A stretch of DNA of 64,000 bases from a virus. Positions 10,600 through 59,134 of this stretch are shown here, piece after piece. The stretch spans positions 37,835-101,834 of the IMG/VR virus record IMGVR_UViG_3300032236_001457; one strand, written 5' to 3'. A program made the translations under genes and the position numbers. Position 1 is the stretch's first letter, and every line of letters starts with the position of its first letter. Below the pieces are notes generated by a model that did not search any database, was not told the origin of the DNA, and was given only the letters and a program-made list of their open reading frames with translations.

Positions 10600-10952
10600 T
10601 TCATATTCCTTCCAATTTCAGCCGCGGCCCTGACGATGGCACGGCGGGTGGCGGCGTAGGGGTCGGTGCCGTACATGATTTTTCCAGTGCCTATGTAGCC
10701 TCCGTCAAACCAGCCGACCACGTAGTCGTCGTAATGCTTTATGTCGATCTTCAACTTCACCGCCATCCTGAAGGCATCTCCATCGTCGGTCAGGGGTAGC
10801 CAAGCAAACGGTCGCCGGCTAGGCGTTGATGGGTCGCTGACATAAAGACAATTGTCCATCATGTCGTCCCAGCCAGAGATTCCATACCCCGCCGCCTTGG
10901 CAGCGTACTGGAGCAATTCATGGTCCAATTCTTGTATTCGTTCATTCATCAT
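10596..10952 (-). CDS. Phage ABA-sandwich-like protein with MNERI N-terminus
   Basis: The N-terminal MMNERIQELDHELLQYA is followed by a domain typical of the phage 'ABA sandwich' group: WLPLTDDGDAFRMAVKLKI and DPYAATRRAIVRAAAEIGR. The core coding DNA is clearly richer in G+C (runs such as gcacggcgggtggcggcgta) than the AT-rich genes around it, which suggests recent arrival from a GC-rich phage and fusion to a local leader. Function unknown. Confidence 0.75.
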   Translation of the reverse strand: MMNERIQELDHELLQYAAKAAGYGISGWDDMMDNCLYVSDPSTPSRRPFAWLPLTDDGDAFRMAVKLKIDIKHYDDYVVGWFDGGYIGTGKIMYGTDPYAATRRAIVRAAAEIGRNMK

Positions 10953-11215
10953 TTTCTTTCCCTAGTTTTTAACAACATCACTTGTTCTTCGGTGGCAAAT
11001 TCACTAATAAAGACACTGCTGTATTCTTTGCCTAACACTTTGTTTAGTAGGCCTGGCCCTAGTCCGATAAATTCATATCTATAGTTATCCAGTTCGACTA
11101 TCATGTTTTTAGTATCAACACGAAGATTTTGATTGGTAGTAAGGGTATCTTTACATTGATTAAATTTATGTTTGGCTTGTTCGTGCGTATCACAAACAAA
11201 TAGTGTGCTATTCAT
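10949..11215 (-). CDS. hypothetical phage protein (88 aa)
   Basis: Alternating strands and helices (STLFVCDTHEQAKHKF ... YRYEFIGLG), resembling small phage proteins with an N-terminal P-loop-less fold. No recognised motif. Overlaps both neighbours by 4 bases. Confidence 0.6.
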   Translation of the reverse strand: MNSTLFVCDTHEQAKHKFNQCKDTLTTNQNLRVDTKNMIVELDNYRYEFIGLGPGLLNKVLGKEYSSVFISEFATEEQVMLLKTRERK

Positions 11216-11427
11216 CCGTCAACTCCGAAATGTTCTTTAATCGCATCAATCATCTTCTCGCAAGCACGGTTATATCCAATAACAAAGTGTGTATCAGTTT
11301 TCGGTTCTCCTCTAACCTCTGAGGCAATGTCTAAAAATTCCCGAACAATTAACTGGGCGAACTTGAAATCATCATAGTGTGCTGAGCCATATACTTGTTC
11401 AGCAAGTTCTTTAATTCGTTCATTCAT
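11212..11427 (-). CDS. MNERI/HFGV-family small protein
   Basis: MNERIKELAEQVYG, FKFAQLIVREFLDIAS, KEHFGVDG. The internal ATG at 11427 is chosen because it matches all relatives and overlaps the upstream stop by 8 bases; the longer frame would read through the upstream gene's 3' end. Confidence 0.75.
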   Translation of the reverse strand: MNERIKELAEQVYGSAHYDDFKFAQLIVREFLDIASEVRGEPKTDTHFVIGYNRACEKMIDAIKEHFGVDG

Positions 11428-11650
11428 TGTTTGCCACACTATATCGTTCTGCCAGTCGGCGAATAGTGTCAATCCTTGGGCTTCCTAATGAATCATCATT
11501 GGTCAATTCGCTTAGAACATCGTAGACAATACACTTGTAGAATTTGGTCAGTTCTTCACGATTGAAAGTAAAAGATGCTGGAGGTTTGGGAAAGTCCCAT
11601 TCTTTTTGACCGGCACAATCAATAGCAAGTTGTTCAAATAGTTCGTTCAC
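11420..11650 (-). CDS. divergent MNERI-type small protein, first gene of an operon
   Basis: MNELFEQLAIDCAG at the N-terminus and an IRRLAERYSVANNE end; the middle is longer than in other copies and HFGV is lost. It starts about 33 bases after a near-consensus sigma-70 promoter, so it opens the minus-strand transcript that runs through the small-gene array. Confidence 0.65.
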   Translation of the reverse strand: MNELFEQLAIDCAGQKEWDFPKPPASFTFNREELTKFYKCIVYDVLSELTNDDSLGSPRIDTIRRLAERYSVANNE

Positions 11651-11682
11651 GATTCAATTCCGTTTTTACACTGTATGAATAC

Positions 11683-11711
11683 ATTATACAGACATTGCAG
11701 GGAATCGTCAA
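11683..11711 (-). promoter_or_regulatory. sigma-70-type promoter
   Basis: Minus strand TTGACG, 17-base spacer, TATAAT, ending 33 bases before the gene start at 11650. Such a near-consensus promoter should be read by unmodified host RNA polymerase. Confidence 0.8.
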
Positions 11712-11734
11712 TCCGTTGTGGTTATACAACAATT

Positions 11735-11980
11735 TTAGGACCACCTCAACATAAACCACATAAATTTCTTTTCATCAACAATGCGGTAGTCTTCAATACT
11801 GTGGAGTTTGTGATTCAAATCAAGTTCTATGCCGTATTCAACTAGTATACGATGTATTTGAGCGTCAAGTCTTGCATTGCCCGTGACAAGTCGTGCTTCT
11901 GGTGTAAGAGTGACTGGAACATGACGCCCAAATTCACTGTATTCTCGACTTAATATTGTTTGTAATTCGCAAGGCTTCAT
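11735..11980 (-). CDS. LRWS-family small protein (last of four tandem copies)
   Basis: 81 residues from the ATG at 11980. It ends FMWFMLRWS, the signature of four neighbouring genes; the rest is divergent (RIVDEKKF precedes the ending). As the terminal copy it alone ends in TAA rather than in the TGA that overlaps a following start. Function unknown. Confidence 0.7.
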   Translation of the reverse strand: MKPCELQTILSREYSEFGRHVPVTLTPEARLVTGNARLDAQIHRILVEYGIELDLNHKLHSIEDYRIVDEKKFMWFMLRWS

Positions 11981-12183
11981 GACCACCTCAATATGAACCA
12001 AGCATAATCACGATCATTGTCAAAATGAAACAGCATCTCTTGAGCCATAATACGAAATCCCCATCTAAACTGGTCGCCTACACTGTATAGGTCAGGAGCC
12101 ATTTGTCCAAATTGTTGATCGCACCAATCCAGCATTTTACTCACTACATACGGATTCATACACTGAAATTTAGCTTCAATCAC
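11977..12183 (-). CDS. LRWS-family small protein
   Basis: GTG start at 12183 overlaps the previous TGA (GTGA). Ends DRDYAWFILRWS. The terminal codons give GAGGTGG five bases before the next ATG. Confidence 0.65.
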   Translation of the reverse strand: MIEAKFQCMNPYVVSKMLDWCDQQFGQMAPDLYSVGDQFRWGFRIMAQEMLFHFDNDRDYAWFILRWS

Positions 12184-12362
12184 GACCACCTCAAAGAAAA
12201 CATTAACGCATCTTTTTCGTCGCTAAAATGATAATCAACCTTAGTATGATCATATGTATTGTATCCATCCATGTGCATATCGTTAGTAATATAACTTGAA
12301 CAATATTTTTTAGCCCAATGCAATGGTTCCCAAAATGGATCGTAAGGTATGGTAACTGTCAT
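12180..12362 (-). CDS. LRWS-family small protein
   Basis: 60 residues starting MTVTIPYDPFWEPLHWAKKY; ends SDEKDALMFSLRWS. The ATG overlaps the upstream stop as ATGA. Internal WAKKY and YHFSDEKDA segments match the other copies in position, suggesting tandem duplication followed by divergence. Confidence 0.7.
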   Translation of the reverse strand: MTVTIPYDPFWEPLHWAKKYCSSYITNDMHMDGYNTYDHTKVDYHFSDEKDALMFSLRWS

Positions 12363-12577
12363 GACCACCTCAATATAAACCACGCACAGTCAGGTTCATT
12401 GCGAAATTTGAAAACACCCTCGCCATCATAATGCCAGCTAGAGTCCAGGGTGTAACCAAACTGTTTCTCGCACCATTCTATACAGGGTGTCCAACCTTCA
12501 TACATTTCTCCTCTTGGAGGAACCGTTGTAATCGGTGCCGGCACACTGGCCACATACCATCCATCGTAGGTCTGCAT
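12359..12577 (-). CDS. LRWS-family small protein (first of four)
   Basis: 72 residues: MQTYDGWYVASVPAPITTVP then CIEWCEKQFGYTLDSSWHYDG and the ending CAWFILRWS. The W-CEKQFG segment recurs as WCDQQFG in the copy at 11977. First member of the tandem set. Confidence 0.7.
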   Translation of the reverse strand: MQTYDGWYVASVPAPITTVPPRGEMYEGWTPCIEWCEKQFGYTLDSSWHYDGEGVFKFRNEPDCAWFILRWS

Positions 12578-12578
12578 T

Positions 12579-12683
12579 TTAACAAAGACCGAATGTAGAG
12601 TGGGTGATTAAGTAATGGGCACTGATGATCATCACAATGATGCCAAACAGTTGGATGATTCGATCCATGTGATTATTTTTCAT
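12579..12683 (-). CDS. tiny membrane peptide (34 aa)
   Basis: Translated directly: MKNNHMDRIIQLFGIIVMII then SAHYLITHSTFGLC. One hydrophobic helix. The second Met (12668) is an alternative start. It fills the gap between two family genes. Expression is likely from position but unproven. Confidence 0.45.
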   Translation of the reverse strand: MKNNHMDRIIQLFGIIVMIISAHYLITHSTFGLC

Positions 12684-12882
12684 TACTGGGCAATCCAAAA
12701 TGTTGTCGAATTTCTCTTGCGGTGCCTCCGCCGGTCATTTTGCTTTCGGCAATTTTGACACATTCAATAGCAATCGACTCAGCGAATTCTCGCATCTGCT
12801 CAAAAGTGTATCCGTGGAGATCGCCTCGTTCTGGATCATACCCTAGCCATTCTTGAGCGGGTAGTTTAATTCTTTCGTTCAC
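12673..12882 (-). CDS. MNERI/HFGV-family small protein
   Basis: GTG start. MNERIKLPAQEWLGY, MREFAESIAIECVKIAES, RQHFGLPSNEK. The C-terminus is extended by SNEK, and HFGV has become HFGL. Confidence 0.7.
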   Translation of the reverse strand: MNERIKLPAQEWLGYDPERGDLHGYTFEQMREFAESIAIECVKIAESKMTGGGTAREIRQHFGLPSNEK

Positions 12883-12969
12883 TCAATACCCCCAAGATAG
12901 TATACCACCACACCCGCTCCAATAGTAATTGTCGCAACCAATTAATTGAATAGGATAAAATTCAATCAC
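12883..12969 (-). CDS. possible tiny Cys/Gly-rich peptide (28 aa)
   Basis: GTG start overlapping the upstream stop (GTGATTGA); peptide IEFYPIQLIGCDNYYWSG then CGGILSWGY. The stop abuts the next GTG start exactly. Only the tight packing supports it. Confidence 0.35.
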   Translation of the reverse strand: MIEFYPIQLIGCDNYYWSGCGGILSWGY

Positions 12970-13168
12970 CTTTACCAACCCACATATGAGCTACTTCTTC
13001 AAAGTCAAAGATTTCTCCTGCTTGTCGATAACGATCTTCACATGGTCCGCAGACAGTTTGATACACGATGGCTCGCTCGCCATAACGATCTGTGCCTTTG
13101 GTCATAATATGATAAGCGTGTGGAAAGTCAAATACCTCATGACCGCAACTCAGTATAATTCTGCTCAT
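12962..13168 (-). CDS. small putative zinc-binding protein (68 aa)
   Basis: SCGHEVFDFPHAYH near the N-terminus and TVCGPCEDRYRQAG later: Cys-x-His plus CxxC could form a zinc-finger. Abuts its upstream neighbour without a gap. Confidence 0.65.
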   Translation of the reverse strand: MSRIILSCGHEVFDFPHAYHIMTKGTDRYGERAIVYQTVCGPCEDRYRQAGEIFDFEEVAHMWVGKGD

Positions 13169-13302
13169 TACCGATCCTTGGTATCCTTTGTTTCTTCAAC
13201 TTGCGTTTCAAACCTAGGTTCGATATATCGATCCCAAACCTTTTGGCCACTGTTCCAACCAAATACTGAGAAAAACCCAAATAGTATAGCACCCCAGATC
13301 AT
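13168..13302 (-). CDS. small single-pass membrane protein (44 aa)
   Basis: Starts at the ATG overlapping the previous stop (ATGA). MIWGAILFGFFSVFGWNSG is a membrane helix; a charged tail follows (EPRFETQVEETKDTKDR). No family known. Confidence 0.6.
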   Translation of the reverse strand: MIWGAILFGFFSVFGWNSGQKVWDRYIEPRFETQVEETKDTKDR

Positions 13303-13508
13303 AGTGGTCTCGTATAAAAGTCTTTGATTTCCTGTGCCACTTGGCGGCCATTGCCATCTGACAGTAGTGCAATTCCTATGCAATCTTCAATGATCAACCG
13401 AGCAAAGCGTGTTAATTCTTTTTCGTAAGCCATTATTGGTTTACCGTGTTCAAATCCAGCAGATGCGAATCCTGATTCAAACGCTAGTTCTTTAATTCTT
13501 TCGTGCAT
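13299..13508 (-). CDS. MNERI-family small protein, variant C-terminus
   Basis: MHERIKELAFESGFA and RFARLIIEDCIGIALL keep the family pattern, but the end is DFYTRPL rather than HFGV. It overlaps the upstream gene by 25 bases, more than is usual here. Confidence 0.65.
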   Translation of the reverse strand: MHERIKELAFESGFASAGFEHGKPIMAYEKELTRFARLIIEDCIGIALLSDGNGRQVAQEIKDFYTRPL

Positions 13509-23451: not shown

Positions 23452-24093
23452 TTAAATTGTTCCAGGGTCAATTCGCCCCAGTTGATCAAATCCCCATTGC
23501 CGTTCATTGCAACCGTTGCAGGATCCGCACTTACCGGGCATGTTACAACTGTGGGTAAGTTCAAATAATTTTTCTTGATTGAAATGGTAAATCAAATCTA
23601 CTATGTGGCTTTTGTTTAGATCTTTAAATGGATATTTACGAGTTTCTGTTTCTGTCCATTTTATTGGGTCTCTCCAACCTATAGTATGTATAGCCAGTTC
23701 TTCGATTAATCCTAAGTATAAAATATTTGATTTTTCTAGCACATCGGCGCACCCAGATTCTACCTGTAAGGATTCTGGTAAGGCAGGGTCTCCTGCAATC
23801 TCGGTCGATAGGTGAGGTAAATTGAATTGATCGTGAACATAGTCAATTACGGATTGAGCGAATTGACAAGATCCGTCTTTTCTAAGAATAGTATAAGGAG
23901 TAATCTTATGTGTAAGACCTTGTTCTATGTTTAGTTTCACTAACAAATAATAAAGTAAGGCACTATCCATTCCTCCACTTATCAATATGCCAACCCGTCT
24001 TCTTAATGGGTTTAGGTAAATTTTTAAGATTTTTCGGTTGATGGAGGGACCGCATTCGACTACAATTTTGTTTTTAATATTAAGAGGAAACAT
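23452..24093 (-). CDS. QueC-like PP-loop ATPase
   Basis: ATP-pyrophosphatase motif SGGMDS (39-44) and a C-terminal zinc site Cys183, Cys189, Cys192, Cys195 (CNMPGKCGSCNGC), the arrangement of QueC, which makes preQ0. Between them the sequence is divergent: the QueC PGRN region is not evident. It may be a phage QueC completing FolE and QueD, or a relative with another substrate. It follows a second PP-loop gene by 13 bases. Confidence 0.72.
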   Translation of the reverse strand: MFPLNIKNKIVVECGPSINRKILKIYLNPLRRRVGILISGGMDSALLYYLLVKLNIEQGLTHKITPYTILRKDGSCQFAQSVIDYVHDQFNLPHLSTEIAGDPALPESLQVESGCADVLEKSNILYLGLIEELAIHTIGWRDPIKWTETETRKYPFKDLNKSHIVDLIYHFNQEKLFELTHSCNMPGKCGSCNGCNERQWGFDQLGRIDPGTI

Positions 24094-42755: not shown

Positions 42756-43544
42756 ATGAAAAGAAATCTTTTAGTTGTACTAAGAACTTGTACAATAATA
42801 AATTCCGCTAGTAAAAGCGACAGATATATCCCAGTTAGCAAACACGAGTTAGTTAAGGTCTGTATCAGTAGTCTAGTTAACAGTATTAACCAAGTTGCGG
42901 ACCACGATGTTAAACTTATAGTGTTAGATGATCACAGCAGCCCAGAGGCTGTAGCAGATATCACTAATATTATTTCACACTGCCGGTTTCCAGTTGAGTT
43001 CATTCCTGTAACGGATGGAACAGGCAATGGACACACTATGGGCCGTGTTTACGAACAGGTAGAAAAACATTGCACAGATCTTTGGTATCATATCGAAGAC
43101 GATTATCTACACGTTCCGGAAGCCATTAACGACATGATTGAGTCGGTGGATCAATTTGAAGGTAATACTGGAAAATTGGTAGCTATCAATCCGCATGATG
43201 ATATTTGGCGATATACCAAACAGATTTACGAAAGTTTCCTGTTGTTAGGACCATATCGTCACTATAGAACAGTTAGACATACTACCTACACCTGCTTGGC
43301 CAGTCGTGCTTTGTTTGATCGATACAGGGAAGTATTTCGTGCCCTAGTTGATTTGACTATACAGGATGCCGGTTGGGTCGAAGATCGATCCATCAATCAA
43401 ATTTGGAATCAACCGGATGTCATGTTGTTCAGTCCTATTCCCGGATTAGGATTTCACATTATGGATGAAAGCGGACGTGATCCTTATATTGATATTATGG
43501 CTATATGGAATAGTGTGCCAAAATTATGGTTGGAGACCAAATGA
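42756..43544 (+). CDS. GT2-like glycosyltransferase
   Basis: Start at ATG 42756 (MKRNLLVVLRTC). VKLIVLDDHSSPEAVADI is the nucleotide-binding strand and DLWYHIEDDYLHVPEA the metal-binding DxD-like site. C-terminal acceptor part DAGWVEDRSINQIWNQ. Its stop overlaps the first of two GT17 genes as ATGA; the three form a plus-strand operon. Confidence 0.78.
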   Translation: MKRNLLVVLRTCTIINSASKSDRYIPVSKHELVKVCISSLVNSINQVADHDVKLIVLDDHSSPEAVADITNIISHCRFPVEFIPVTDGTGNGHTMGRVYEQVEKHCTDLWYHIEDDYLHVPEAINDMIESVDQFEGNTGKLVAINPHDDIWRYTKQIYESFLLLGPYRHYRTVRHTTYTCLASRALFDRYREVFRALVDLTIQDAGWVEDRSINQIWNQPDVMLFSPIPGLGFHIMDESGRDPYIDIMAIWNSVPKLWLETK

Positions 43545-44386
43545 AAATTTACGATTGTTTTACTTTTTTTAATGAATTAGATCTGCTAGAAATCAGGCTA
43601 CAAGAGCTGTATGATACTGTAGATTATTTTGTAATTGCCGAAGCCAATATGAGTCACAGTGGTAAGCCCAAGGGATATACACTTTTAGAAAATTGGGAGA
43701 GATTTGCGCCATGGCATGATAAAATCCGTCGTATCGCAGTAGATGACATGCCTGTTACCAATAACAGTTGGGTTAGAGAAAAGTTTCAGCGTGATGCGTT
43801 GTCAAGAGGATTGACTGATCTCGAATCAGATGATCTCATTATAGTCAGCGACTTGGATGAAATTCCACGAGCAGAAATCATTGCAATGATTCGTGAGGAC
43901 GAGAATCGGTATGAACGTTATGTATTGCGTGTTCCCTTATTCCGTTACAAGTTTAATTTCCTAAAATGGCATCAACCTGTGATCAATAATCAAATGATTG
44001 TTACCAGGGCCCATGTGTTTACTCATCCCGAAAAAGAGCGTGATTATACTCATGCTTGGTTACCACCTGCTCCAGATTTTGTCTATGTTGATCATGCCGG
44101 ATGGCATTTTAGTTATTTGGGCGATGATCGCAACGCAGTCCATAAATTACAGAACTTTGCTCATACCGAACAGAACATTCCAGAGATTGTAGATGTGTTT
44201 AGCATTGATCGTATGATCGCAGAAAAGTGCGGGCCTAATCCCAACGATCCGGAAAAGTTTGAGCATGTGGTCATGGATGATTATTTTCCTGCTTGTATTG
44301 TGAATAACATGGAAAAATACAGTCATTTGATTATACCCAATGCAACTGCAAATGTTACTGATTTTTATCCAATGGGTGAAGAATGA
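43541..44386 (+). CDS. GT17-type glycosyltransferase
   Basis: From ATG 43541: IYDCFTFFNELDLLEIRL, IAEANMSHSGKPKG, IIVSDLDEIPRAE, and VDHAGWHFSYLGDDRNAV. Clear paralogue of the next gene and of the minus-strand gene at 35998. Overlaps both neighbours by 4 bases. Confidence 0.9.
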   Translation: MKIYDCFTFFNELDLLEIRLQELYDTVDYFVIAEANMSHSGKPKGYTLLENWERFAPWHDKIRRIAVDDMPVTNNSWVREKFQRDALSRGLTDLESDDLIIVSDLDEIPRAEIIAMIREDENRYERYVLRVPLFRYKFNFLKWHQPVINNQMIVTRAHVFTHPEKERDYTHAWLPPAPDFVYVDHAGWHFSYLGDDRNAVHKLQNFAHTEQNIPEIVDVFSIDRMIAEKCGPNPNDPEKFEHVVMDDYFPACIVNNMEKYSHLIIPNATANVTDFYPMGEE

Positions 44387-45267
44387 AAGTTTATGACGTA
44401 TTCTCTTTCTATAATGAATTTGACATTTTAGAAATACGACTAAAAGAGTTATGGGATACTGTTGACCATTTTGTGTTGCTCGAAGCCAGCACAACCTTTG
44501 TTGGGAATCCAAAAGAATATCTTTTTGAAAAAAATAAAGAACGTTTTGCTCCATACATGAGTAAAATTAGGCATATCAAATTAGATGATTCTATTGAAAT
44601 GCAGAAACAGGTTTTTCCAAGAGAGATTGACGATACCTGGGTTCGTGAAAAGTATCAGAGATACGCTGCTCGTACAGCGTTACATGATATCGGTCCTGAT
44701 GATATTATTGTTATCAGTGATTGCGATGAAATACCTCGTGCCGATATGATCGAATTGATCAAAGAAGATGAAAACGATTATGATCGATATATTTTGTATG
44801 TTGCTCAGTTCAACTACAAAATTAACTATATGAAAATTCAAAATCCCAGTAGGCATCCAGCAATCATAGCAACCAGAGGAAGAGTATTCACTAACCCTCA
44901 ACAAGAAAGAGAATATTCGTTCTATTGGAATCAGAAGCCAGAAAACACCATCGGAGTAGATCACGGCGGGTGGCATTTTACATATTTCGGTGATGAAAGG
45001 CATTGTGTCAACAAGATTCAAAACTTTGCTCACACTGAACAAAATAATCCTAACATAATTGACGAATTTAGTATTGAGTGGATGATTCGTAACAAGTATG
45101 GGCATGAAGGCATAGATAGCAAAGACAATGAAAGATTTGAATATGTAATTATTGATGAATACTTTCCTAAATGTATCACCGACAATATCAACGATTGGGC
45201 AGATATGATCATTCCCGATGCTGTATTTCGAGTAGAAGATTTATATCGAACCAACGAGAACAATTAA
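44383..45267 (+). CDS. GT17-type glycosyltransferase
   Basis: VYDVFSFYNEFDILEIRLKE, LEASTTFVGNPKE, IIVISDCDEIPRADM (Leu to Cys within the acidic motif), and VDHGGWHFTYFGDERHCV. Second of a tandem pair, so probably adds a different residue in the same glycan. Confidence 0.9.
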   Translation: MKVYDVFSFYNEFDILEIRLKELWDTVDHFVLLEASTTFVGNPKEYLFEKNKERFAPYMSKIRHIKLDDSIEMQKQVFPREIDDTWVREKYQRYAARTALHDIGPDDIIVISDCDEIPRADMIELIKEDENDYDRYILYVAQFNYKINYMKIQNPSRHPAIIATRGRVFTNPQQEREYSFYWNQKPENTIGVDHGGWHFTYFGDERHCVNKIQNFAHTEQNNPNIIDEFSIEWMIRNKYGHEGIDSKDNERFEYVIIDEYFPKCITDNINDWADMIIPDAVFRVEDLYRTNENN

Positions 45268-47562: not shown

Positions 47563-49212
47563 ATGAAAATAGCATTAATAGCTAGCGGATTACCTAGGTT
47601 CATGCCAGACTTTATTGACCTAATGAGCAAACTCAAAGGGTTTGAATGCGCTGACATATATATGTGTCTTTGGAAAACAGATTGGGCAACAACTGCCGAA
47701 GAAGCTAGAAACAAAATTGAAAAAATACTAGCACCTGAATTTCGTTTGGCAAAAATAAAAGTTGTTGATGAGCCGCCATATCAATTACCTGATCATACTT
47801 TTCCCTTGGCTCCTCCGGCTCCTGAAAACACAACTTGGTGGTATAAAAGGATATTTGCTCAGTTCACAGGCCTTACTATGGCATTCGATCTTATTGATCA
47901 AGAATACGATGCTGTTATTAAGTTTAGAGTCGATGGATCATTAGAAAAAGAATTAGATGTAAGAACACTAGATCTCAAAACACATCCTTTATTATTTCCC
48001 TGTAATAATGGGGCAGGATTTGACTATTGTCGAGTAAGTGATTTGTTTTTTGTCGGAACACAGGAAGCAATGAGATTTACCTGTAACCTCAGTAAAGAAT
48101 TTCGCGAGTTGGTTCCTGCTGCTGATCCTACGTGGGGAGACTCGGATATTGTCGATGGCACCTGGAATTGGGGCACTGAACACTTAATCGGGTTCTATAT
48201 GAGGAAATATAACTTTCCTGTAGCTTATGGCGATTTTCGTGCTACACTAAATTCGTTCGGCAGGTCAAAATATACCGATAGGCATTACCATCACAGGATA
48301 GTTCCCGACCCCACTGAAACAAATCCTAAGGTTTTGTTGTTAGGTGATTCCCATACAGATGTATTCTTAGGCAGCCCAAATGTAAATAGATTCGATATGA
48401 GATTGTGCAGTCAACGGGCATTTACAATCCATAGATTTACAGATTTTAATGAAACAGATCTTTGGGCTCCTTTGATCAATTGGTTTGAGCAGAACACTAT
48501 CAATTCTCAAGACCCTTGCAGAACGTTAGTTATTACCGGAGGTGAAATTGATGTTCGTGCTCATTTCTGGAGACACATCCCTCGGCATTATCAAGGAAAG
48601 GACAGTATCTTAAATTATGTTCAATCTGTTGCTGTAAAATTTTATCAGGCGTTGGCAGCAGTTTGCAATCATTATGATATAAGACGAGTAGTAGTTTGGG
48701 GATCACCAGTTGCAGGAGAACGTGCTCATTACAATAGCGAGCATCCGTTTGTCGGTCCATCACAAACAAGAAACCGGTTAATTCACATTTGGAACCGAGA
48801 ATTTGTTAGAGCGATTGAAAATGATCAAAGAATTTCATTAGCAACTGCGTATTACAACTTTATCGATCCTACAAACTATTCTACCGTAGATCCTTCTCCG
48901 TCGCATGACGGAGTGCATTGGCATGATAGTTATGGTCCTGTATTTTGGGAAAAGCTCATTCAGCCTTGTATAGATGGTAATAAAATTGCAGTAGGAATGA
49001 ATTGGAATAACATGTATAATGATCAATTTGACATTGTTGAATCAATTTCTCAAGGTACTCAACAATATGATACTTGGGCAAGGACAGATCAAATTTCAAA
49101 TCTAGATGGAATTGATCGTCATGTTGTAATAAATGGTCAATCATATTCATGGGTTCGAGCAGAGCATCGTAGTTTATTGCCATCGCAATATAACGAAATA
49201 GTAATACAATAA
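47563..49212 (+). CDS. GQPRF domain fused to an SGNH-hydrolase-like domain
   Basis: 549 residues. 1-250: MKIALIASGLPRFMPDF, YDAVIKFRVDGSLE, the GQPRF family. About 260-470: SGNH-like domain with VLLLGDSHTDVF (nucleophile Ser), VITGGEIDVRAHF, and SHDGVHWHDSYG (Asp/His). It may build and deacylate, or trim, the same sugar. The C-terminal 70 residues have no match I can name. Confidence 0.75.
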   Translation: MKIALIASGLPRFMPDFIDLMSKLKGFECADIYMCLWKTDWATTAEEARNKIEKILAPEFRLAKIKVVDEPPYQLPDHTFPLAPPAPENTTWWYKRIFAQFTGLTMAFDLIDQEYDAVIKFRVDGSLEKELDVRTLDLKTHPLLFPCNNGAGFDYCRVSDLFFVGTQEAMRFTCNLSKEFRELVPAADPTWGDSDIVDGTWNWGTEHLIGFYMRKYNFPVAYGDFRATLNSFGRSKYTDRHYHHRIVPDPTETNPKVLLLGDSHTDVFLGSPNVNRFDMRLCSQRAFTIHRFTDFNETDLWAPLINWFEQNTINSQDPCRTLVITGGEIDVRAHFWRHIPRHYQGKDSILNYVQSVAVKFYQALAAVCNHYDIRRVVVWGSPVAGERAHYNSEHPFVGPSQTRNRLIHIWNREFVRAIENDQRISLATAYYNFIDPTNYSTVDPSPSHDGVHWHDSYGPVFWEKLIQPCIDGNKIAVGMNWNNMYNDQFDIVESISQGTQQYDTWARTDQISNLDGIDRHVVINGQSYSWVRAEHRSLLPSQYNEIVIQ

Positions 49213-49234: not shown

Positions 49235-49849
49235 ATGAAATGGGAAGGTGATTTAGTTCGAGATATTAGAACATATACGGAGTTTGATAACGAAGATGGT
49301 AATCAATTAGGAAGAGTTATCAGAGACGTGCCCGGTAGTGGAACGCATCGAGAATTTAGTGATTGTAATCGCGCTGAACTAACTGAAAAATTTCTAAAAG
49401 TTAAAGATCAAGCAAAAGCCGTTTTAGAAATAGGAGTTTGTAGGAATGGGGAGGAAAGTTCTACATTTTGTTTTCTCAATAATAAACTCGACGAAACAGC
49501 ATATGTTGGCATAGATCTTGAAAATAAATCTTTTTTAGATAATCAAGAAAAAAGAATTTATACTATTTGTGGAAACAGTAGTGATGTTGACCATAATATC
49601 GAAATCATGAAATCGTGGGGAATCACTGAGTTAGATTTTATTTTTATCGACGGATGGCACAGTATCAATCAAGTTCTCGTTGATTGGGAGTATACTAAAA
49701 TCTTATCACCTGGAGGTATTGTAGCATTTCATGATGTTAGTGAGCACCCCGGACCACATATGTTTATAAGAAATCTAAATACAGACATATGGAATGTAGA
49801 AATTCTTTGCCCCACCGATTGGGGTATTGGATTTGCCTGGCGCAAATGA
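49235..49849 (+). CDS. class I methyltransferase, glycan-cluster type
   Basis: 204 residues: KAVLEIGVCRNGEESSTFCF (motif I), YVGIDLENKSFLD, DFIFIDGWHSINQVLVDWEY and GGIVAFHDVSEHPG. Close in form to phage-encoded sugar methyltransferases. Its stop overlaps the GDPD start by 4 bases. Confidence 0.8.
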   Translation: MKWEGDLVRDIRTYTEFDNEDGNQLGRVIRDVPGSGTHREFSDCNRAELTEKFLKVKDQAKAVLEIGVCRNGEESSTFCFLNNKLDETAYVGIDLENKSFLDNQEKRIYTICGNSSDVDHNIEIMKSWGITELDFIFIDGWHSINQVLVDWEYTKILSPGGIVAFHDVSEHPGPHMFIRNLNTDIWNVEILCPTDWGIGFAWRK

Positions 49850-50346
49850 AATTAATAGCGCATCGTGGGCTAATCAACGGTCCGGATAAAACTATAGAAA
49901 ATCATCCGGATCAGATTGAATTTGCAATCGAGCAAGGATTTGATTGCGAAATTGATTTATGGTTCGAAGATGCTAGATTTTGTCTTGGGCATGATAATCC
50001 ACAATATCCTATAGATAAAGATTTTCTTATTAAACATAAGAAACGGCTATGGATTCATGCCAAGAATTTAAAAGCATTACATTGGTTATCTACCACCAAT
50101 GGGTTTTTTAATTATTTTTGGCATCAAAACGATGACTGTGTTATTACCAGTCAGGGGTATATTTGGACCTACCCCGAAAAGCCATTAACTGATCGTAGTG
50201 TTAGATTAATGCCAGAATGGGCAGATCCCGAATTTAAAACTATTTTAAAAAATCACTGCTATGCTGTATGCAGTGATTATGTTGTTAGAATTAAAGCAAT
50301 TATTTCCAACGACCATAATCTACAAAATCAGGATGTGACAAGCTAA
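49846..50346 (+). CDS. GDPD-like phosphodiesterase (short)
   Basis: From ATG 49846: KLIAHRGLINGPDKTIENHP, FDCEIDLWFEDARFCLGHD. His-Arg and Glu-x-Asp correspond to the catalytic/metal residues of glycerophosphodiester phosphodiesterases. At 166 residues it is shorter than cellular GDPDs. Its 3' end overlaps the opposing GQPRF gene by 47 bases. Confidence 0.75.
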   Translation: MKLIAHRGLINGPDKTIENHPDQIEFAIEQGFDCEIDLWFEDARFCLGHDNPQYPIDKDFLIKHKKRLWIHAKNLKALHWLSTTNGFFNYFWHQNDDCVITSQGYIWTYPEKPLTDRSVRLMPEWADPEFKTILKNHCYAVCSDYVVRIKAIISNDHNLQNQDVTS

Positions 50347-51037
50347 CTGGGGTTTGATATTCGTTCTTAACCTGTTCAATTCCAGTTAGTGGATAAACAA
50401 TTCCGTTTACTTTTAAGTGCTGTCCTAATAAAGTTTCAGCATGATAATGCAGTCCTTGTCTATGATATTGCTCAAAGTAATCTATAGCATTACAATAGAC
50501 CGACATTGCAGCACTAGTTCCAAATGCAATCATATCATTTAAAGCGAATCCGATACCATTTCGAAGATTATCAGGTGTAATTATAACATTAGGATTTGCC
50601 TGTATAAACTGATTTACCAGTCTAAGATTCAGTTTAGATCGTATCCCAACATCACCCCTTGACCTAATTACCATATCATAGGGGTTGTGTTTTTCTCTTA
50701 GTATATTGACCTGTTTTAGTGCTGAATAATTATTCCACACATGAATAGGATTGGTCCATGGATTGCGCTGTAGCCAATCTGGTATGGTATATTCGGGAGG
50801 GTTAGTCACTACTAATTCTACCAGATTGGACTTAGGTGGGAGATTTTTAATTATCCTTGATTTTACATCTTCCTCAGCGATTGGCCAAGTCCTGGGTATT
50901 AGCATACTTTCTTCATGCTTGGCTATCCATATATAGAAGAAAAAATCTAGTTGATCATAATCTTCTAAATTATCAAGGAAATCATCGAATTCACGAGTGA
51001 ATCTGGGCTGTCCTGTGATAAGAACAGCAGCCTTCAT
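50300..51037 (-). CDS. 'GQPRF'-family glycan protein
   Basis: Start at ATG 51037, overlapping the RuBisCO-like stop (TGATG). KAAVLITGQPRFTREFDDFL, YDQLDFFFYIWIA, PYDMVIRSRGDVGI. The coupling to the RuBisCO-like gene ties that enzyme to glycan building. Confidence 0.72.
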   Translation of the reverse strand: MKAAVLITGQPRFTREFDDFLDNLEDYDQLDFFFYIWIAKHEESMLIPRTWPIAEEDVKSRIIKNLPPKSNLVELVVTNPPEYTIPDWLQRNPWTNPIHVWNNYSALKQVNILREKHNPYDMVIRSRGDVGIRSKLNLRLVNQFIQANPNVIITPDNLRNGIGFALNDMIAFGTSAAMSVYCNAIDYFEQYHRQGLHYHAETLLGQHLKVNGIVYPLTGIEQVKNEYQTPVSLSHPDFVDYGRWK

Positions 51038-52227
51038 CAGCAATATCCCCATTTAGCAATGGCAACACGATATTCTTCGCCTGGTGTTTTGTCCACGGCT
51101 TGACGCATGGCACGAGCACCCGCTACAGTTCCCCCGGGGTGTCCGTGAACAGCACCGCCCACATTGGCCATATAATCTACGCCAACCTGTCCTGTAACAT
51201 AATCAATTAGCCCCGCATGCATTCCGCAACTGAGAACAGGAGTAGTATTGCCATCTCTTAGTACTCGCATACTTTCCATTAGCTCTTCAGGATCGTCATT
51301 ACTATATCCACCAATCATTCCGGTTTGAATAGTGTCTACTCCCATTAGAGTGGCTAGTTGACAAATCACAGGCCATGCAATGCTAAATCTATGACTGGCA
51401 TCTGTAAAGACTTTATCTCCGCTTTTCTGGAAATGTAGGAATAATGGCAAGTCTAATTTACGAATACTGTTATAAACACCTAGTCCACTGAATACATTAA
51501 TGTGAACACCGTTGCCGCCTAGTTCATGCACTCGGTTAACACGATCAACAATAACATGTGGATCAGCATTGATAGTATGACAGATTACAACTTTACGACT
51601 TTGTTTAGCCATATAGTTGGCAATCAAGTCAACCCTACGTTCTAACGGAGCACAGGCAGGGTTACTCATGATTTCATCCTCTTTGATAAAATCAACACCG
51701 CCGTCGACCATTTGTTTTACCATTTCTAGCAATACTTCTGGAGTGATACCAATCTTAGGTTTAACAATACTACCAAATAGCGGTTTACCGTATTGTCCTG
51801 TAAACTGTCTAAATCCACTTAATCCAAATTTAGGTCCTAGAAAATGTTTAGTAACGGTCTCAGGTAGTTCTAATTTAATCAATCTACAGCGTGTGATAAT
51901 ATCAATATCAACATGCCCGCCCATTAATTGGCATAGCAAGTGACTGATACCATCGGTTTCCCAATCTGTATTAGCTACAGGAAAGGCAATGGATACCTCT
52001 CCGTGTTTTGCAACTTCTAAGTTATGTTCGTTTCCAAGAATAATACAACTGTGATTTTCAAATAGGTCATCAGTTTCCCATTCGTTACGCACATTGGGAT
52101 TACCTACACTTTGACCGATGGCTAGGTTCCATGCGGCTTCTTTAAGATTTTTACTACTTGCCATGTCGTAGGTAGCAATGTAGTAATCGTTTTTGTTGAT
52201 CTCATTAATGGTTTTAAAGAACTTCAT
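51037..52227 (-). CDS. RuBisCO-like protein (form IV type, not a carboxylase)
   Basis: 396 residues from ATG 52227 (GGAG eight bases upstream). Seen against plant RuBisCO: Lys156 and Lys158 in VKPKIG (K175, K177), Lys182-x-Asp184-Glu185 in FIKEDE (K201, D203, E204, the carbamate/metal site), and GGAVHGHPGG (phosphate loop) are kept. Lost: H294 (region LFLHFQKSG), H327 is Gln301, and loop-6 K334 is Tyr308 in TGMIGGYSND. Metal binding and enolisation are therefore plausible, CO2 fixation is not. Known RuBisCO-like proteins enolise or decarboxylate sugar phosphates (methionine salvage, apiose-type pathways). Operon: nucleotidyltransferase, cupin, this gene, GQPRF. Confidence 0.9.
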   Translation of the reverse strand: MKFFKTINEINKNDYYIATYDMASSKNLKEAAWNLAIGQSVGNPNVRNEWETDDLFENHSCIILGNEHNLEVAKHGEVSIAFPVANTDWETDGISHLLCQLMGGHVDIDIITRCRLIKLELPETVTKHFLGPKFGLSGFRQFTGQYGKPLFGSIVKPKIGITPEVLLEMVKQMVDGGVDFIKEDEIMSNPACAPLERRVDLIANYMAKQSRKVVICHTINADPHVIVDRVNRVHELGGNGVHINVFSGLGVYNSIRKLDLPLFLHFQKSGDKVFTDASHRFSIAWPVICQLATLMGVDTIQTGMIGGYSNDDPEELMESMRVLRDGNTTPVLSCGMHAGLIDYVTGQVGVDYMANVGGAVHGHPGGTVAGARAMRQAVDKTPGEEYRVAIAKWGYC

Positions 52228-52537
52228 ATTTGTCTCCGGGTAAGCTAGGTGTTTTAACACAGACCAATTGGCAATCCTCTAAAAATTCAGGTTCGGCAAC
52301 TTCTCCGGGTTCGATAACAAATACATCTCCTGCTACCATTTCTACTCCATTTATTTTCATATGTCCTTTAATTAATACATTATATTCAGTAGCGACAGCA
52401 TGATAATGTTTAGCCCACTGTTCGCCTTTGGTATGATTCAGTAGACTAACTTCAAATTGATCAGTTTTAAGTAGGGTGGGTTCAAAATTGCCAATAAACC
52501 AACCACGATAGAATTCACTAATATTACGCTTTATCAT
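52214..52537 (-). CDS. cupin-domain protein
   Basis: 107 residues forming one small barrel: LLNHTKGEQWAKHYHAVATE (His-x-His and Glu of the first cupin motif) and VAGDVFVIEPGEVAEPEF (second motif, with the His missing). May be a sugar isomerase or binding subunit. Overlaps the RuBisCO-like start by 14 bases and the nucleotidyltransferase stop by 14. Confidence 0.82.
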   Translation of the reverse strand: MIKRNISEFYRGWFIGNFEPTLLKTDQFEVSLLNHTKGEQWAKHYHAVATEYNVLIKGHMKINGVEMVAGDVFVIEPGEVAEPEFLEDCQLVCVKTPSLPGDKYEVL

Positions 52538-53237
52538 GTTTCAGGAATCTCTCTAAATCTACAGGAACTCCTACAGCATGGTGCTGCTCATTAGGTATAT
52601 GATATATACCTACACTTAGTCCTTCTTTGATCATATAGTTATAGCTAGGACCGATATAGAACTCTCCGTTAGGAGCTCGATCATCGGCAGCAATCATAGC
52701 TTCGGCACTGCGAACAAAATGTCGACCTTGTCGCCAATAATGAATGCCGTTTAAACTAACATTGCTGATAACTTCTTTCTCGCGGATTTCTTTGACAAAA
52801 CCCTTGCGATCGAGCCGGGCATAACTGTTTTTATCAGTGTCACTGTAGTAGGTAACCACAGCACCATCATATAGCCTAACATTATGAAAAAATGCCGAGC
52901 TATTCCATTCCATGATTTGATCACAGTTGGCTGTAATTAATTCATCGTCATTGTTGATTTTGTCTTTAAACAACAGAACAGATGATGCTGGTCCACGTGT
53001 AGTTTGTGTAACTTCAACGAACCTAGGATTATCTACAGTCCTACTGATAATTTCTTCGATGATTGGAGTATATTCGTTGCGTCTAATAACAAAATGATAC
53101 TGTCCATCAATGTTCAAACTTTCTATAGCGCGAACTATCATGGGCTTGCCATTTACGTCGATTAAGGGTTTGGGCAGATATTGATCTTTGGGAAACCGGG
53201 TGCCCTCTCCGGCCATTGGGATTACGATATTAACCAT
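52524..53237 (-). CDS. sugar-1-phosphate nucleotidyltransferase
   Basis: 237 residues: VIPMAGEGTRFPKDQYLPKP is the NTP/G-x-G-x-R-x-x-P-K signature, LITANCDQIMEW the metal-binding region. Activates a sugar phosphate to an NDP-sugar. First gene of the operon holding the cupin and the RuBisCO-like protein. Confidence 0.88.
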   Translation of the reverse strand: MVNIVIPMAGEGTRFPKDQYLPKPLIDVNGKPMIVRAIESLNIDGQYHFVIRRNEYTPIIEEIISRTVDNPRFVEVTQTTRGPASSVLLFKDKINNDDELITANCDQIMEWNSSAFFHNVRLYDGAVVTYYSDTDKNSYARLDRKGFVKEIREKEVISNVSLNGIHYWRQGRHFVRSAEAMIAADDRAPNGEFYIGPSYNYMIKEGLSVGIYHIPNEQHHAVGVPVDLERFLKHDKA

Positions 53238-55728: not shown

Positions 55729-57651
55729 TCATCTCCTATACTGTTGCTCTATCATCTGTTGATGTAGGCGATCTGTTGATAACTGCCTTAATGCCCTAGC
55801 ATTATCAACTGGTGTTTGATTTTTATAAATCTCCTTTGGTTCATACATTTTTCCATCTTGTAGCATTAAACTGGTATAACTGCCATATCCAACTGGGGTT
55901 GTGGCTAATTTACTGATATCCACTCCACCTGCTAGTTCGTTATCCGATACTGAGGTTTTAATTGGTTGAGCAGATTCTGTAGTATTGGTAGTGGTTACTG
56001 CGGTCTTTGATTCAACAACTTCGTTCAGTGGATCTGTGCGATTGGTCATAAAACCTGCTGTGTTACTGACCTGTTCTATTTCTGCTTGTCTAGCGAAACT
56101 CACCTGCTGTGCTGTGGCCTGTTGCTGTTGTTCAACCGGTGCTGCTGCCATAGCATAGAACATGGTGTTCTGTGGTTGAGTATAAGCCGAAATCATTGTG
56201 GACTGTTGGGAGTCTGTGTTGGCCTGTGAGAATGTTGGAGTGTTAGTTGTTGTTACGGTTATAGGAACAACTGTTACCAAAGGTGCAGTAGTGGCAGATT
56301 TATTAGGCTGCGGTGGCAGTGTAGGTATGCTGGGTGCATCCTGAACTGTCTGTGTTGATGTAGGCTGTGTCCTAGAAAAATAAGACTGTAGTGTGGGTAT
56401 GCTGAACTGTTGTGTGTCTACATTAGAAACGCTTGAAACTACGGTTGCATTGGTAGTAACAGGAGTTGATGTCCTCGGTGCTGGCATTTGAAAAGTAGGC
56501 GATACTGAAACAGATTTATTTTCATTGTTGGAATTAGCAGTGTTAGGAGTAGGTGGTGCTAATGTTGTTTGGCTTGTGGTAGGGCTAGCAACAGGAGTAG
56601 TTGATTGCCGTTGTGTTTGAATTGTTGCATTAGACAGTGCTTGACTCATTGCGGCCGAACTAGCAGCAACGGCTACAGCCTGTTGTTGTGCTGCGGTAGC
56701 TGATGCGGCTGCTTCTGCTACGGCTGCTTGTGATACACTGGTTTGTAATGCCTGTGTTTGTTGTTGATTCCTAGCAATTAAATTCAGTGCTGTGGCCACG
56801 GTTTTAGACGGTGGTTTAATGGCAGCAGTATCCGTTTGTGATTTATTAGTTGTGCTAACAGTTACAGCAGGTGCGGTAGTAATGGCAACTGTTTCTACTG
56901 CGGGGGCCGCGGTTACTGCCATACTAGGAATAACTGTTGGGTTTTTAGCGCTCATTGCTGCGGCATAGCCTGGACATGCTGGGCTACTAGTAGGATCTGT
57001 AGCACAAGGATCAACACGATATTTTAGATTGAAACTGACATTGGTGATTTCTGGACCATAATTGCCTGCCCAATAGTTGTTGTCTCTGCCAATGAATCCA
57101 TACTGTGCCGCTCTATAACTTGTTGCTAGACTGGGATTGGCAAATGTTTCACTAAAATTAAAATTGGTCCAATCATATTGTCTATTAGTATATTGACCAT
57201 AACCATATAGGGCAGCCACACCACCGTCGGGTCTGTAAAATTGCACATAGGCATTCAAATAGTCTTGTCTACCGTCATCCCACCCATTGCCATTTTTAGC
57301 CATAAAGCCAAAATTAAATCCAGTAACTTGTAGATTATTACCTGCTGCTTTTAACGCTGCATTTATGTTGACTACTTGATATAGATTAACTCCTCCATAA
57401 CTAAAGTTAATATTACCAGATTGATTAACACTTGGATAAGGTCCGCAGTTACCTGGATCACCAGCATGAAAGCATATTGTATTGGTATAAACGCCATTGA
57501 CCCAGTTACCGGTTGTGGCCGTAGGTGTACCGGTAAAATTAACTAGATTACCGGTGGTAGGGTCCGGAGTTAATGCGTTAGTGGAAGCCGAATAGCTTGA
57601 AAGCAAACATGCCCAATAAACTACCCAAACCAATTTTCTTAAGGCTGTCAT
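55729..57651 (-). CDS. large secreted Thr/Ala/Gln-rich protein (640 aa)
   Basis: Signal peptide KLVWVVYWACLLSSYSASTN. Residues about 30-215 form a beta-rich domain with Tyr/Trp/Asn and paired Cys (CFHAGDPGNCGPY). The rest is low-complexity Thr, Ala, Ser and Gln (QQQAVAVAASSAAMSQALSN), ending in a basic tail. No family function known. Overlaps the Asn-rich gene's 3' end by 74 bases, but the signal peptide requires this start. Confidence 0.72.
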   Translation of the reverse strand: MTALRKLVWVVYWACLLSSYSASTNALTPDPTTGNLVNFTGTPTATTGNWVNGVYTNTICFHAGDPGNCGPYPSVNQSGNINFSYGGVNLYQVVNINAALKAAGNNLQVTGFNFGFMAKNGNGWDDGRQDYLNAYVQFYRPDGGVAALYGYGQYTNRQYDWTNFNFSETFANPSLATSYRAAQYGFIGRDNNYWAGNYGPEITNVSFNLKYRVDPCATDPTSSPACPGYAAAMSAKNPTVIPSMAVTAAPAVETVAITTAPAVTVSTTNKSQTDTAAIKPPSKTVATALNLIARNQQQTQALQTSVSQAAVAEAAASATAAQQQAVAVAASSAAMSQALSNATIQTQRQSTTPVASPTTSQTTLAPPTPNTANSNNENKSVSVSPTFQMPAPRTSTPVTTNATVVSSVSNVDTQQFSIPTLQSYFSRTQPTSTQTVQDAPSIPTLPPQPNKSATTAPLVTVVPITVTTTNTPTFSQANTDSQQSTMISAYTQPQNTMFYAMAAAPVEQQQQATAQQVSFARQAEIEQVSNTAGFMTNRTDPLNEVVESKTAVTTTNTTESAQPIKTSVSDNELAGGVDISKLATTPVGYGSYTSLMLQDGKMYEPKEIYKNQTPVDNARALRQLSTDRLHQQMIEQQYRR

Positions 57652-59134
57652 CTTCTTTTACCTCTATTGCTACTGGCATTTTTTCAGGATTAGCTTCCCA
57701 TGCCGCTCTTGCTGCATCACCAATCTTGCCTTCATATGGGCAAGGAGTACCTGCTGACCACATAGCATCAAATACACGGCGATCTTGACACATAGTAGCT
57801 ACAGCAGCCACTTTCATTCCCATGTCATATAATGTTTTGGCTAGTTTCAATCTTTCACAATTGACATCTCTAATAGTGGATCCGCTGCTTACACCAAAGA
57901 TTTGTGTTTGAACAGCACCACTTACGCCGGTGGTACATAGGTCAGCATTACCGCCACTCATCATTGTTGGGGCAATTGCTGTGGGCGGTGGTTGTATGAC
58001 TCGCTGTGTGATCTCCGATGAGTTGATATTGCGGTTTGTCATGTCACCAGTTTGTACATTTTGATTAACATTGTTGCTGTTATTGACATTATTACTAGTG
58101 CTTGCGCTGACACTGGTATTCACATTATTGTTATTATTGGTCATTGTGCCAGTGTTAATGTTGTTATTGGTATTAACATTGCTATTTGAACTGGTGCTGG
58201 TATTAATATTCCTATTAGTCATGCTGCCACTAGTAATGTTATTATTAGTATTAACATTGGTACTAGTGCTTGTGCTAGCATTGTTATTGTTATAAGTCAT
58301 TGTACCAGTATTAACATTGATATTTTTATTTGTATTGCTACTGGTGCTGTTACTTGTATTAATGTTATTATTAGTCATTGTACCATAATTGTAATTAGTG
58401 CTTGTACTGGTGTTAATGTTTTTATTCACATTATTGCTAGTACTGCTATTGAGATTAACATTTTTATTAACCGAGCTACTAACATTATTGTTATTATATG
58501 TCATCGTACCACTGTTAATGTTATTATTGGTATTGACATTTGTGCTTGTGCTACTACTGGTGCTAGCATTATTGTTATTATATGTCATCGTGCCACTGTT
58601 AATGTTGTTATTAGTATTGACACTGGTACTTGTGCTGGTATTAATATTGCGATTAGTCATATCGCCGGTATTCACATTATTGTTATTGTTTGTTATTGTG
58701 CCACTTTGAATGTTATTGTTAGTATTAACCGATGTACTAGAATTAGTATTGTTATTATTGTTTGTTACAGTTCCGCTTTGAATGTTATTGTTATTGTAGG
58801 TAACGGTTCCGCTATTAACGTTGTTATTGTTATTGTTGTAGGTAACGGTGCCACTATTAACGTTGTTGTTTGTTACAGTGCCACTTTGAATATTATTATT
58901 TGTATTAACACTGGTGTTGAGGTTAGTGCTGTTACTGTTTACCGTGGACTGGCTAGTGCTTGTGCTATTGCTTGTGCTGTTATTTGTGGTGTTAACAATG
59001 CTGGTGCTGTTACTGGTACTATTGGTATCTACCAGTGTCTTTGAATCGTAGCCACCTTGATTGATTAATGTTTGAGCATTGGTGGCAGTAATGGCAAAAA
59101 TCATACCAATACTTACTACTATTTTTTTGAACAT
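57578..59134 (-). CDS. secreted Asn-rich repeat protein (518 aa)
   Basis: Signal peptide (VSIGMIFAITATNAQ). Residues about 36-375 are almost only Asn, Ser, Thr, Val, Ile and Gly in a repeat such as NTNNNINSGTMTYNNNNAST, roughly 12-28 residues apart. The C-terminal 130 residues are a conserved phage domain with Cys pairs (ADLCTTGVSGAVQTQIFGVS, CERLKLAKTLYDMGMKVAAV, MCQDRRVFDAMWSAGTPCPY). The repeat could form a beta-solenoid or adhesive rod. Two tiny Leu-rich frames opposite are its antisense. Confidence 0.85.
   Translation of the reverse strand: MFKKIVVSIGMIFAITATNAQTLINQGGYDSKTLVDTNSTSNSTSIVNTTNNSTSNSTSTSQSTVNSNSTNLNTSVNTNNNIQSGTVTNNNVNSGTVTYNNNNNNVNSGTVTYNNNNIQSGTVTNNNNNTNSSTSVNTNNNIQSGTITNNNNNVNTGDMTNRNINTSTSTSVNTNNNINSGTMTYNNNNASTSSSTSTNVNTNNNINSGTMTYNNNNVSSSVNKNVNLNSSTSNNVNKNINTSTSTNYNYGTMTNNNINTSNSTSSNTNKNINVNTGTMTYNNNNASTSTSTNVNTNNNITSGSMTNRNINTSTSSNSNVNTNNNINTGTMTNNNNNVNTSVSASTSNNVNNSNNVNQNVQTGDMTNRNINSSEITQRVIQPPPTAIAPTMMSGGNADLCTTGVSGAVQTQIFGVSSGSTIRDVNCERLKLAKTLYDMGMKVAAVATMCQDRRVFDAMWSAGTPCPYEGKIGDAARAAWEANPEKMPVAIEVKEDDSLKKIGLGSLLGMFAFKLFGFH
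58030..59020 (-). repeat. degenerate tandem repeats coding Asn/Ser/Thr
   Basis: The plus strand shows repeated attattgttatt/gttattag-type units with variants of TGGTACTAGT and CATTGTGCCACT. Unit boundaries vary from about 36 to 84 bases, so slippage and recombination probably reshaped it. Confidence 0.7.

Follow-up and report, generated by a model that had tools for sequence, protein, structure and literature searches.

A distinct clade of RuBisCO-like proteins in a conserved nucleotidyltransferase cassette of uncultured phages

The locus

We analyzed a 64,000-nucleotide stretch of viral DNA (hereafter the window; positions 37,835 to 101,834 of IMG/VR record IMGVR_UViG_3300032236_001457), in which a gene for a ribulose-1,5-bisphosphate carboxylase/oxygenase (RuBisCO)-like protein (RLP) lies in a compact operon with genes for a nucleotidyltransferase (NTPt) and a small cupin. 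The remainder of the record carries tail fiber and phage ATP-dependent protease genes and is therefore consistent with a phage. The genes at and around the RLP are as follows:

49235-49849, plus strand: methyltransferase (Methyltransf_24; PF13578, 5.9e-08)
49846-50346, plus strand: short GDPD-like phosphodiesterase with the motifs HRG..EN..ExD..GHD, convergent with the operon
50300-51052, minus strand: GQPRF protein, putatively glycosyltransferase-like (phrog_13607, 3.2e-13), overlapping the end of the RLP gene
51037-52227, minus strand: RLP, the core of the cassette, with an ATG at 52227 and 396 residues (PF00016)
52214-52537, minus strand: small cupin (phrog_24762, 1.9e-34) with the metal motif HxHxxxxE (H44, H46, E51)
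52524-53237, minus strand: NTPt, a MobA-like nucleotidyltransferase (PF12804, 6e-08; phrog_3980, 3.7e-55)

A sequence-only reading of the window had proposed a 396-residue member of the RuBisCO superfamily at this position, which is confirmed by the match to Pfam RuBisCO_large (PF00016, E = 5.7e-38); a longer frame, from a GTG at 52260, encodes 407 residues. The protein falls below every curated NCBIfam cut-off by a wide margin, even with its best scores: 162.9 bits for form III (cut-off 497), 156.8 for OiaX (700), and 155.2 and 125 for the MtnW families NF007095 (409) and TIGR03332 (513.6). An AlphaFold2 model built from the family alignment has a predicted local distance difference test (pLDDT) score of 92 and a predicted template modeling (pTM) score of 0.91. 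Its best Foldseek match is type III RuBisCO (template modeling score, TM, 0.89), with MtnW at TM 0.83-0.85 and the C. tepidum RLP at TM 0.81-0.84. With a RuBisCO fold, a PF00016 match, and loss of carboxylation residues, the protein belongs to form IV (RLP). Compared with its homologue in locus L031, nonsynonymous divergence (dN) is 0.095 with synonymous divergence (dS) saturated (>2), indicating strong purifying selection on the gene.

The overlaps said to couple the RLP gene to its neighbors are present. They span 14 nucleotides between NTPt and cupin, 14 between cupin and RLP, and 16 between RLP and GQPRF, the last shrinking to 1 nucleotide with the second methionine of the GQPRF protein as the start.

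Clade and distribution

In a maximum-likelihood analysis of 57 proteins, the RLP and its relatives, 25 family members in all, group together with 100/100 support. The group lies outside RuBisCO forms I, II, and III and outside the OiaX/apiose, MtnW, and 3qfw groups; the IV-Photo group (that of the C. tepidum RLP) was not included, and the form labels of some genomes' proteins are NCBIfam matches to representatives. The window RLP itself is thus placed outside the methionine-salvage clade and outside the OiaX and 3qfw clades, and it is separated from forms I-III both by clade and by the K334 and H294 positions (H294, K334, K175, and similar are given in spinach numbering; K182, Q267, Q301, Y308, and G104 in that of the window RLP). 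Against a profile of the family, members score at least 460 bits and every other superfamily protein tested no more than 250.

Hundreds of uncultured phages carry this distinct branch. Scanning viral contigs with the single RLP protein recovered 38 viral loci whose proteins are 57-88% identical to it and, with few exceptions, full length, and scanning them with the RLP alignment recovered 283 viral loci encoding a relative. These numbers, together with the strong purifying selection, show that the observation is not due to chance. We found no relative among the 50,697 sequenced phage records of INPHARED, and hence no annotated phage relative that would name the function of the RLP.

The clade is mainly viral and sporadic in cells. 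Cellular carriers comprise SAR11 single cells, Nanoarchaeia, Patescibacteria, Verrucomicrobia, Elusimicrobia, Azospirillum, and Legionella. Carriage at a family-level score was rare: within the Legionella order it was seen in 4 of 143 genomes, within the SAR11 order in 2 of 297, and in the Verrucomicrobiia and Patescibacteria phyla in 1 of 195 and 1 of 287, respectively. The initial description as a phage gene therefore holds in that most copies are viral, but not in the sense of a phage-only gene, since rare cellular copies occur beside LicD in Legionella and beside glycan genes in SAR11 single-cell genomes.

A separate group of RuBisCO-like proteins was seen in four genomes from the class of Azospirillum (L139-L142, from G067, G207, G189, and G092). 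These carry an N-terminal helix-turn-helix (HTH) domain, with TrbA/RstR-like matches for that part in L139 and L142, and they branch as the sister group of form I. In L139 and L140 the motif of the carbamate lysine is GGVDITCDP or GGVDITADP, from which the catalytic lysine has been lost. The protein is possibly a RuBisCO-derived transcription factor.

Active-site residues

The RLP clade retains the carbamate and metal site of RuBisCO while replacing residues of carboxylation. Equivalents of K175, K177, K201, D203, E204, S379, G381, and G403 are invariant in all 89 aligned viral RLPs, and likewise in a mixed viral and cellular set. In the same 89 proteins five replacements are uniform: H294 to Gln, K334 to Tyr, N123 to Gly, D202 to Glu, and G380 to Cys. 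Among the groups compared (form I, form III, MtnW, OiaX-type, and 3qfw-type), none has this combination of residues.

The retention of K182, D184, and E185 in the window RLP and the exchange of its loop-6 lysine for Tyr308 were both borne out. The further claim that the carboxylation residues are lost needs to be narrowed. In the window RLP, the equivalents of H294, K334, N123, and H327 are Q267, Y308, G104, and Q301, respectively. However, loss of H327 is not a trait of the family, because this position is Gln in 55 of the 89 viral RLPs and His in the other 34, and His is kept in 19 of 24 members of the mixed set. Judged by its residues, the clade is predicted to be incapable of carbon fixation.

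Conservation of the cassette

RLP genes travel with a defined set of partners. After removal of near-duplicates, 64 viral RLP loci remained; within 4 kb of the RLP, NTPt was present in 60, the cupin in 50, and the GDPD-like gene in 42. The usual order is NTPt-cupin-RLP-GDPD, amid glycosyltransferase-like and methyltransferase genes. Pairwise distances of the RLP correlate with those of the cupin, NTPt, and GDPD-like proteins (Mantel r 0.38-0.44, P = 0.0005), which is what parts moving as a unit should show. Neighborhoods in other phages thus do not lack sugar genes. The association extends to cells, where 18 of 22 RLP loci have NTPt; the same NTPt lies beside the RLP in Legionella, SAR11, Nanoarchaeia, and Elusimicrobia. 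In three Legionella species, a divergent LicD gene (PF04991, 6e-44) adjoins the RLP-NTPt pair; phmmer found LicD in the Legionella loci only and in none of the viral RLP loci.

The partner proteins have recognizable folds or motifs. NTPt contains a sugar nucleotidyltransferase domain (PF12804, 33.5 bits against a curated cut-off of 27), and its profile is nearest in the PDB to 4evw, a nucleoside-diphosphate-sugar pyrophosphorylase (1.8e-34). The cupin model (AlphaFold2, pLDDT 97) has archaeal cupin phosphomannose isomerases (7zvm and 7zvy) among its Foldseek neighbors. In the GDPD-like protein, H6, R7, E35, D37, and H49 are invariant in 26 sequences and the four motifs are invariant or nearly so, and its profile matches the glycerophosphodiester phosphodiesterase 7e0v at 1.5e-4. 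It is shorter than a full-length GDPD domain (about 150 residues versus 255 for 7e0v), and a Pfam search returned no match.

Two further neighbors are less constant. The GQPRF protein, which had no match in a Pfam search, occurs in 46 loci (neighbor cluster 4) and is cassette-linked but variable, while the methyltransferase (neighbor cluster 6) occurs in 39 and is frequent but not constant. The window holds three GQPRF/GLPRF copies, one of which (47563-49212, plus strand) joins a GLPRF-type N-terminal domain to a C-terminal half that resembles, by eye, a GDSH/SGNH hydrolase.

Swapped partners at the RLP position

The strongest functional hint comes from loci in which other enzymes stand at the position of the RLP. 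Using the cupin as bait yielded 80 viral loci; the bait was led by the RLP-type cupin, and RLP loci are accordingly the majority. In 7 of the 12 bait loci without an RLP, the order is NTPt-cupin-X-GDPD, where X is a protein of 234-248 residues that matches eukaryotic phosphomannomutase (PMM; PF03332 down to 1.8e-18; PDB 5ue7, 2.2e-17) and in which the DxD motif is retained. Among the nonredundant cupin loci, none had an RLP together with RpiB or the PMM-like protein.

Sequenced cyanophages show a related pattern in the form of fusions. In Synechococcus phage Bellamy, this NTPt forms one protein with RpiB (PF02502, 3.9e-32) and has a PfkB-like kinase and the cupin of the cassette as neighbors; in S-SKS1 its fusion partner is DHBP synthase (PF00926, 5e-65), and in S-CAM9 it is a HAD phosphatase, with GDPD nearby. 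Across 30 RpiB-type viral loci, PfkB is present in 30, the cupin in 27, and GDPD in 25. Loci anchored on GDPD mostly have HAD-NTPt. Both RpiB and DHBP synthase (RibB) have ribulose-5-phosphate as substrate or product.

The sequence-only reading had placed the RLP in the context of building a nucleoside diphosphate (NDP)-sugar. This context is supported by the cassette and is strengthened by the PMM-like protein at the RLP position and by the fusions of NTPt to RpiB and DHBP synthase.

The sugar clusters of Bellamy (L202:12368-14923) and S-SKS1 (L203:7377-8539) also contain phosphoheptose isomerase, GHMP kinase, and transaldolase genes, suggesting that these phages may make heptose- or pentose-type donors.

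Proposed function and alternatives

We propose that the RLP is probably an enolase-type sugar-phosphate isomerase or epimerase that feeds the nucleotidyltransferase. It would be a metal- and carbamate-dependent enzyme that forms an enediolate from a small ketose phosphate or a similar phosphorylated sugar, and would then isomerize or epimerize this intermediate instead of carboxylating it. The invariant carbamate lysine, metal-binding acids, and K175/K177 point to enediolate chemistry, and the missing loop-6 lysine points away from carboxylation. We prefer an isomerase or epimerase because of these residues, the small-sugar-phosphate enzymes that take the place of the RLP, and the precedent of an RLP paired with a cupin (PMC5893883). 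Within the phage cassette, the RLP would be the exchangeable part that shapes the sugar. Together with the cupin, which is probably a sugar-phosphate isomerase, it would prepare a sugar phosphate, NTPt would activate this with a nucleotide, nearby transferases would place the activated sugar on a surface glycan, and the short GDPD-like enzyme may take part by acting on a phosphodiester. We infer this activity, substrate class, order of steps, and end product, the NDP-sugar included, from homology and gene context.

A more specific version is tentative, and we would not expect it to hold: the RLP may be a ketose-phosphate 1,3-isomerase that converts a pentulose-5-phosphate to a pentulose-1-phosphate, from which NTPt would make an NDP-ketose donor. 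If true, the RuBisCO fold would here serve biosynthesis, in the building of a glycan, for the first time, and the PMM-like protein in the same slot would also deliver a 1-phosphate.

Several observations weigh against an isomerase or epimerase as the exchangeable part of the cassette. H294 and N123 are important residues in true RuBisCO. Both are replaced throughout the clade, and the R295 position is Lys or Ser in the 89 viral RLPs; this changes the second phosphate site, and the substrate may lack a phosphate at that position. The nearest folds of the cupin mix isomerases, dioxygenases, and ectoine synthase, which makes its function uncertain. The tally of nonredundant cupin loci (73 with RLP, 24 with RpiB, 6 with PMM, 1 with RLP and DHBP synthase, and 9 with none of these) describes exclusivity within the fetched stretches, not frequencies, as the RpiB loci were found via the RpiB fusion and the cupin loci via a bait led by the RLP type. 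Finally, HAD-NTPt fusions co-occur with an RLP in a few loci (L033, L034, L091, and L102), so the HAD fusion is not exclusive of the RLP.

The main rival is that the RLP is a decarboxylase or another enzyme acting on C-C bonds, like OiaX or an aldolase, which would supply a shortened or branched sugar phosphate to the same NTPt. OiaX, a decarboxylating relative, scores about level with MtnW against the window RLP (156.8 and 155.2 bits), S-SKS1 joins this NTPt to the carbon-removing DHBP synthase, and the retained K175/K177 would suit proton delivery after C-C cleavage. We nevertheless consider this unlikely: the RLP clade is separate from the OiaX group, which keeps H294, R295, and K334 where the RLP clade replaces them, and no sugar-acid kinase was recognized near the RLP, whereas most OiaX-group plasmid loci have a four-carbon acid sugar kinase. 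Alternatively, the sugar-shaping role may be right and the product a phosphodiester-linked alditol or similar compound, made through a CDP-type donor and a LicD-like transferase. LicD beside RLP-NTPt in the three Legionella species and the presence of the GDPD-like gene at 42 of 64 viral loci would fit such a product, but the lack of LicD in the viral loci by phmmer and the proximity of NTPt to a sugar pyrophosphorylase make it rather improbable.

It is very unlikely that the RLP is a noncatalytic, binding or regulatory subunit of NTPt or of another cassette enzyme. Several catalytic residues of RuBisCO are indeed replaced, and the alphaproteobacterial HTH-fused domain, having lost its carbamate lysine, makes noncatalytic use of the fold plausible; yet a binding protein would have no need for a carbamate/metal triad and K175/K177 that are fully invariant. 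Methionine salvage, with the RLP as MtnW enolase or methylthioribulose-1-phosphate 1,3-isomerase and the cupin as downstream enzyme, recalls the RLP-cupin pairs of R. rubrum and R. palustris (PMC5893883), and MtnW is among the closest solved structures. However, the RLP lies outside both groups in the tree (100/100) and differs in active-site residues. Its neighbors are NTPt and glycan genes with no methionine-salvage gene recognized, and the cupin family of the RLP cassette was not found beside the 3qfw-group loci examined, so that we give this role almost no weight. Least credible of all is a carboxylase/oxygenase that aids host carbon fixation: the fold is that of RuBisCO and structurally nearest to type III, but K334, H294, and N123 are replaced in 89 of 89 viral copies and the context is a sugar cassette. 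Tree, residues, and context thus reject both methionine salvage and carbon fixation.

To our knowledge, the known RLP reactions are few, and all are salvage or catabolic. A clade this large and predominantly viral, marked by an active-site signature peculiar to it and tied to a sugar-activation cassette, would extend the RuBisCO fold to surface-sugar biosynthesis. The interchangeable set of RLP, PMM-like protein, RpiB, DHBP synthase, and HAD at one NTPt family offers a testable route to the substrate, and suggests how phages diversify the sugars that they may put on host surfaces. For phage-altered host surface sugars, the usual proposal is the exclusion of other phages (PMC7029224, PMC7824862).

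Other features of the window

Elsewhere in the window, tandem glycosyltransferase family 17-type proteins are encoded at 43526-45267 on the plus strand (the first by PF04724, 1.5e-29; the second by eye). On the minus strand, a 640-residue secreted-looking protein with a long Ala/Thr/Gln region (55729-57651), which has a homologue in L031, adjoins a 518-residue protein made largely of Asn/Ser/Thr repeats (57578-59134; NTNNNINSGTMTYNNNN). Also on this strand are a row of several short, similar open reading frames starting MNERIKELAEQ or alike (about 7978-13508), a QueD-like protein (3406-3948), and a PP-loop ATPase that is possibly QueC-like (23455-24093), the last two recognized by eye. The QueD-like and PP-loop proteins hint at deazaguanine (queuosine-type) modification in the phage.

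Comparison with known systems

We found no description of this clade, or of an RLP in such a sugar cassette, in the open-access literature (subscription journals were outside the search), and the clade is not treated in PMC13269706 or PMC12168267. The 2007 Global Ocean Sampling (GOS) survey reported 65 RuBisCO homologues outside the known forms, with no viral origin, cassette, or function assigned (PMC1821046). These homologues may include the RLP clade. Among the characterized relatives, form III RuBisCO (8dht, 3a12, and 2cwx) is the best PDB profile match of the RLP (208 bits) and shares its fold and K175/K177/K201/D203/E204, but it belongs to a separate clade and lacks the five uniform replacements. 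The GOS homologue groups are perhaps, we presume, the "IV-GOS" of later reviews.

MtnW (2oej), the 2,3-diketo-5-methylthiopentyl-1-phosphate enolase, shares with the window RLP the fold, the carbamate lysine, the metal residues, and the absence of the loop-6 lysine. It differs in clade and neighborhood and lacks the K177 kept here, and Q267 and Y308 are unique to the RLP. The 3qfw structure, which we take to be R. palustris RLP1 (the DeepYkr RLP), represents a different clade, with His where the RLP keeps E204. In R. rubrum and R. palustris, a cupin follows the RLP, which 1,3-isomerizes 5-methylthioribulose-1-phosphate to 1-methylthioxylulose-5-phosphate (PMC5893883). The DeepYkr RLP and the phage RLP share the pairing with a cupin and might share 1,3-isomerase chemistry on a pentulose phosphate. 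OiaX, the 3-oxo-isoapionate-4-phosphate decarboxylase, is likewise an RLP that works on a small sugar-acid phosphate, but it forms a separate clade, keeps H294 and K334, and is encoded in operons for catabolism that include a four-carbon acid sugar kinase.

Pelagimyophages carry lipopolysaccharide-type glycosyltransferases (PMC7029224), and the sugar clusters of jumbo phages and cyanophages contain cupin isomerases, PfkB kinases, and nucleotidyltransferases (PMC7824862); RuBisCO is mentioned in neither account. The cyanophage clusters of S-CAM9, Bellamy, and S-SKS1 (reviewed in PMC7824862) resemble the RLP cassette in having the same NTPt and the same GDPD or cupin families along with sugar kinases, isomerases, and glycosyltransferases, and they differ in having RpiB, DHBP synthase, or HAD in place of the RLP.

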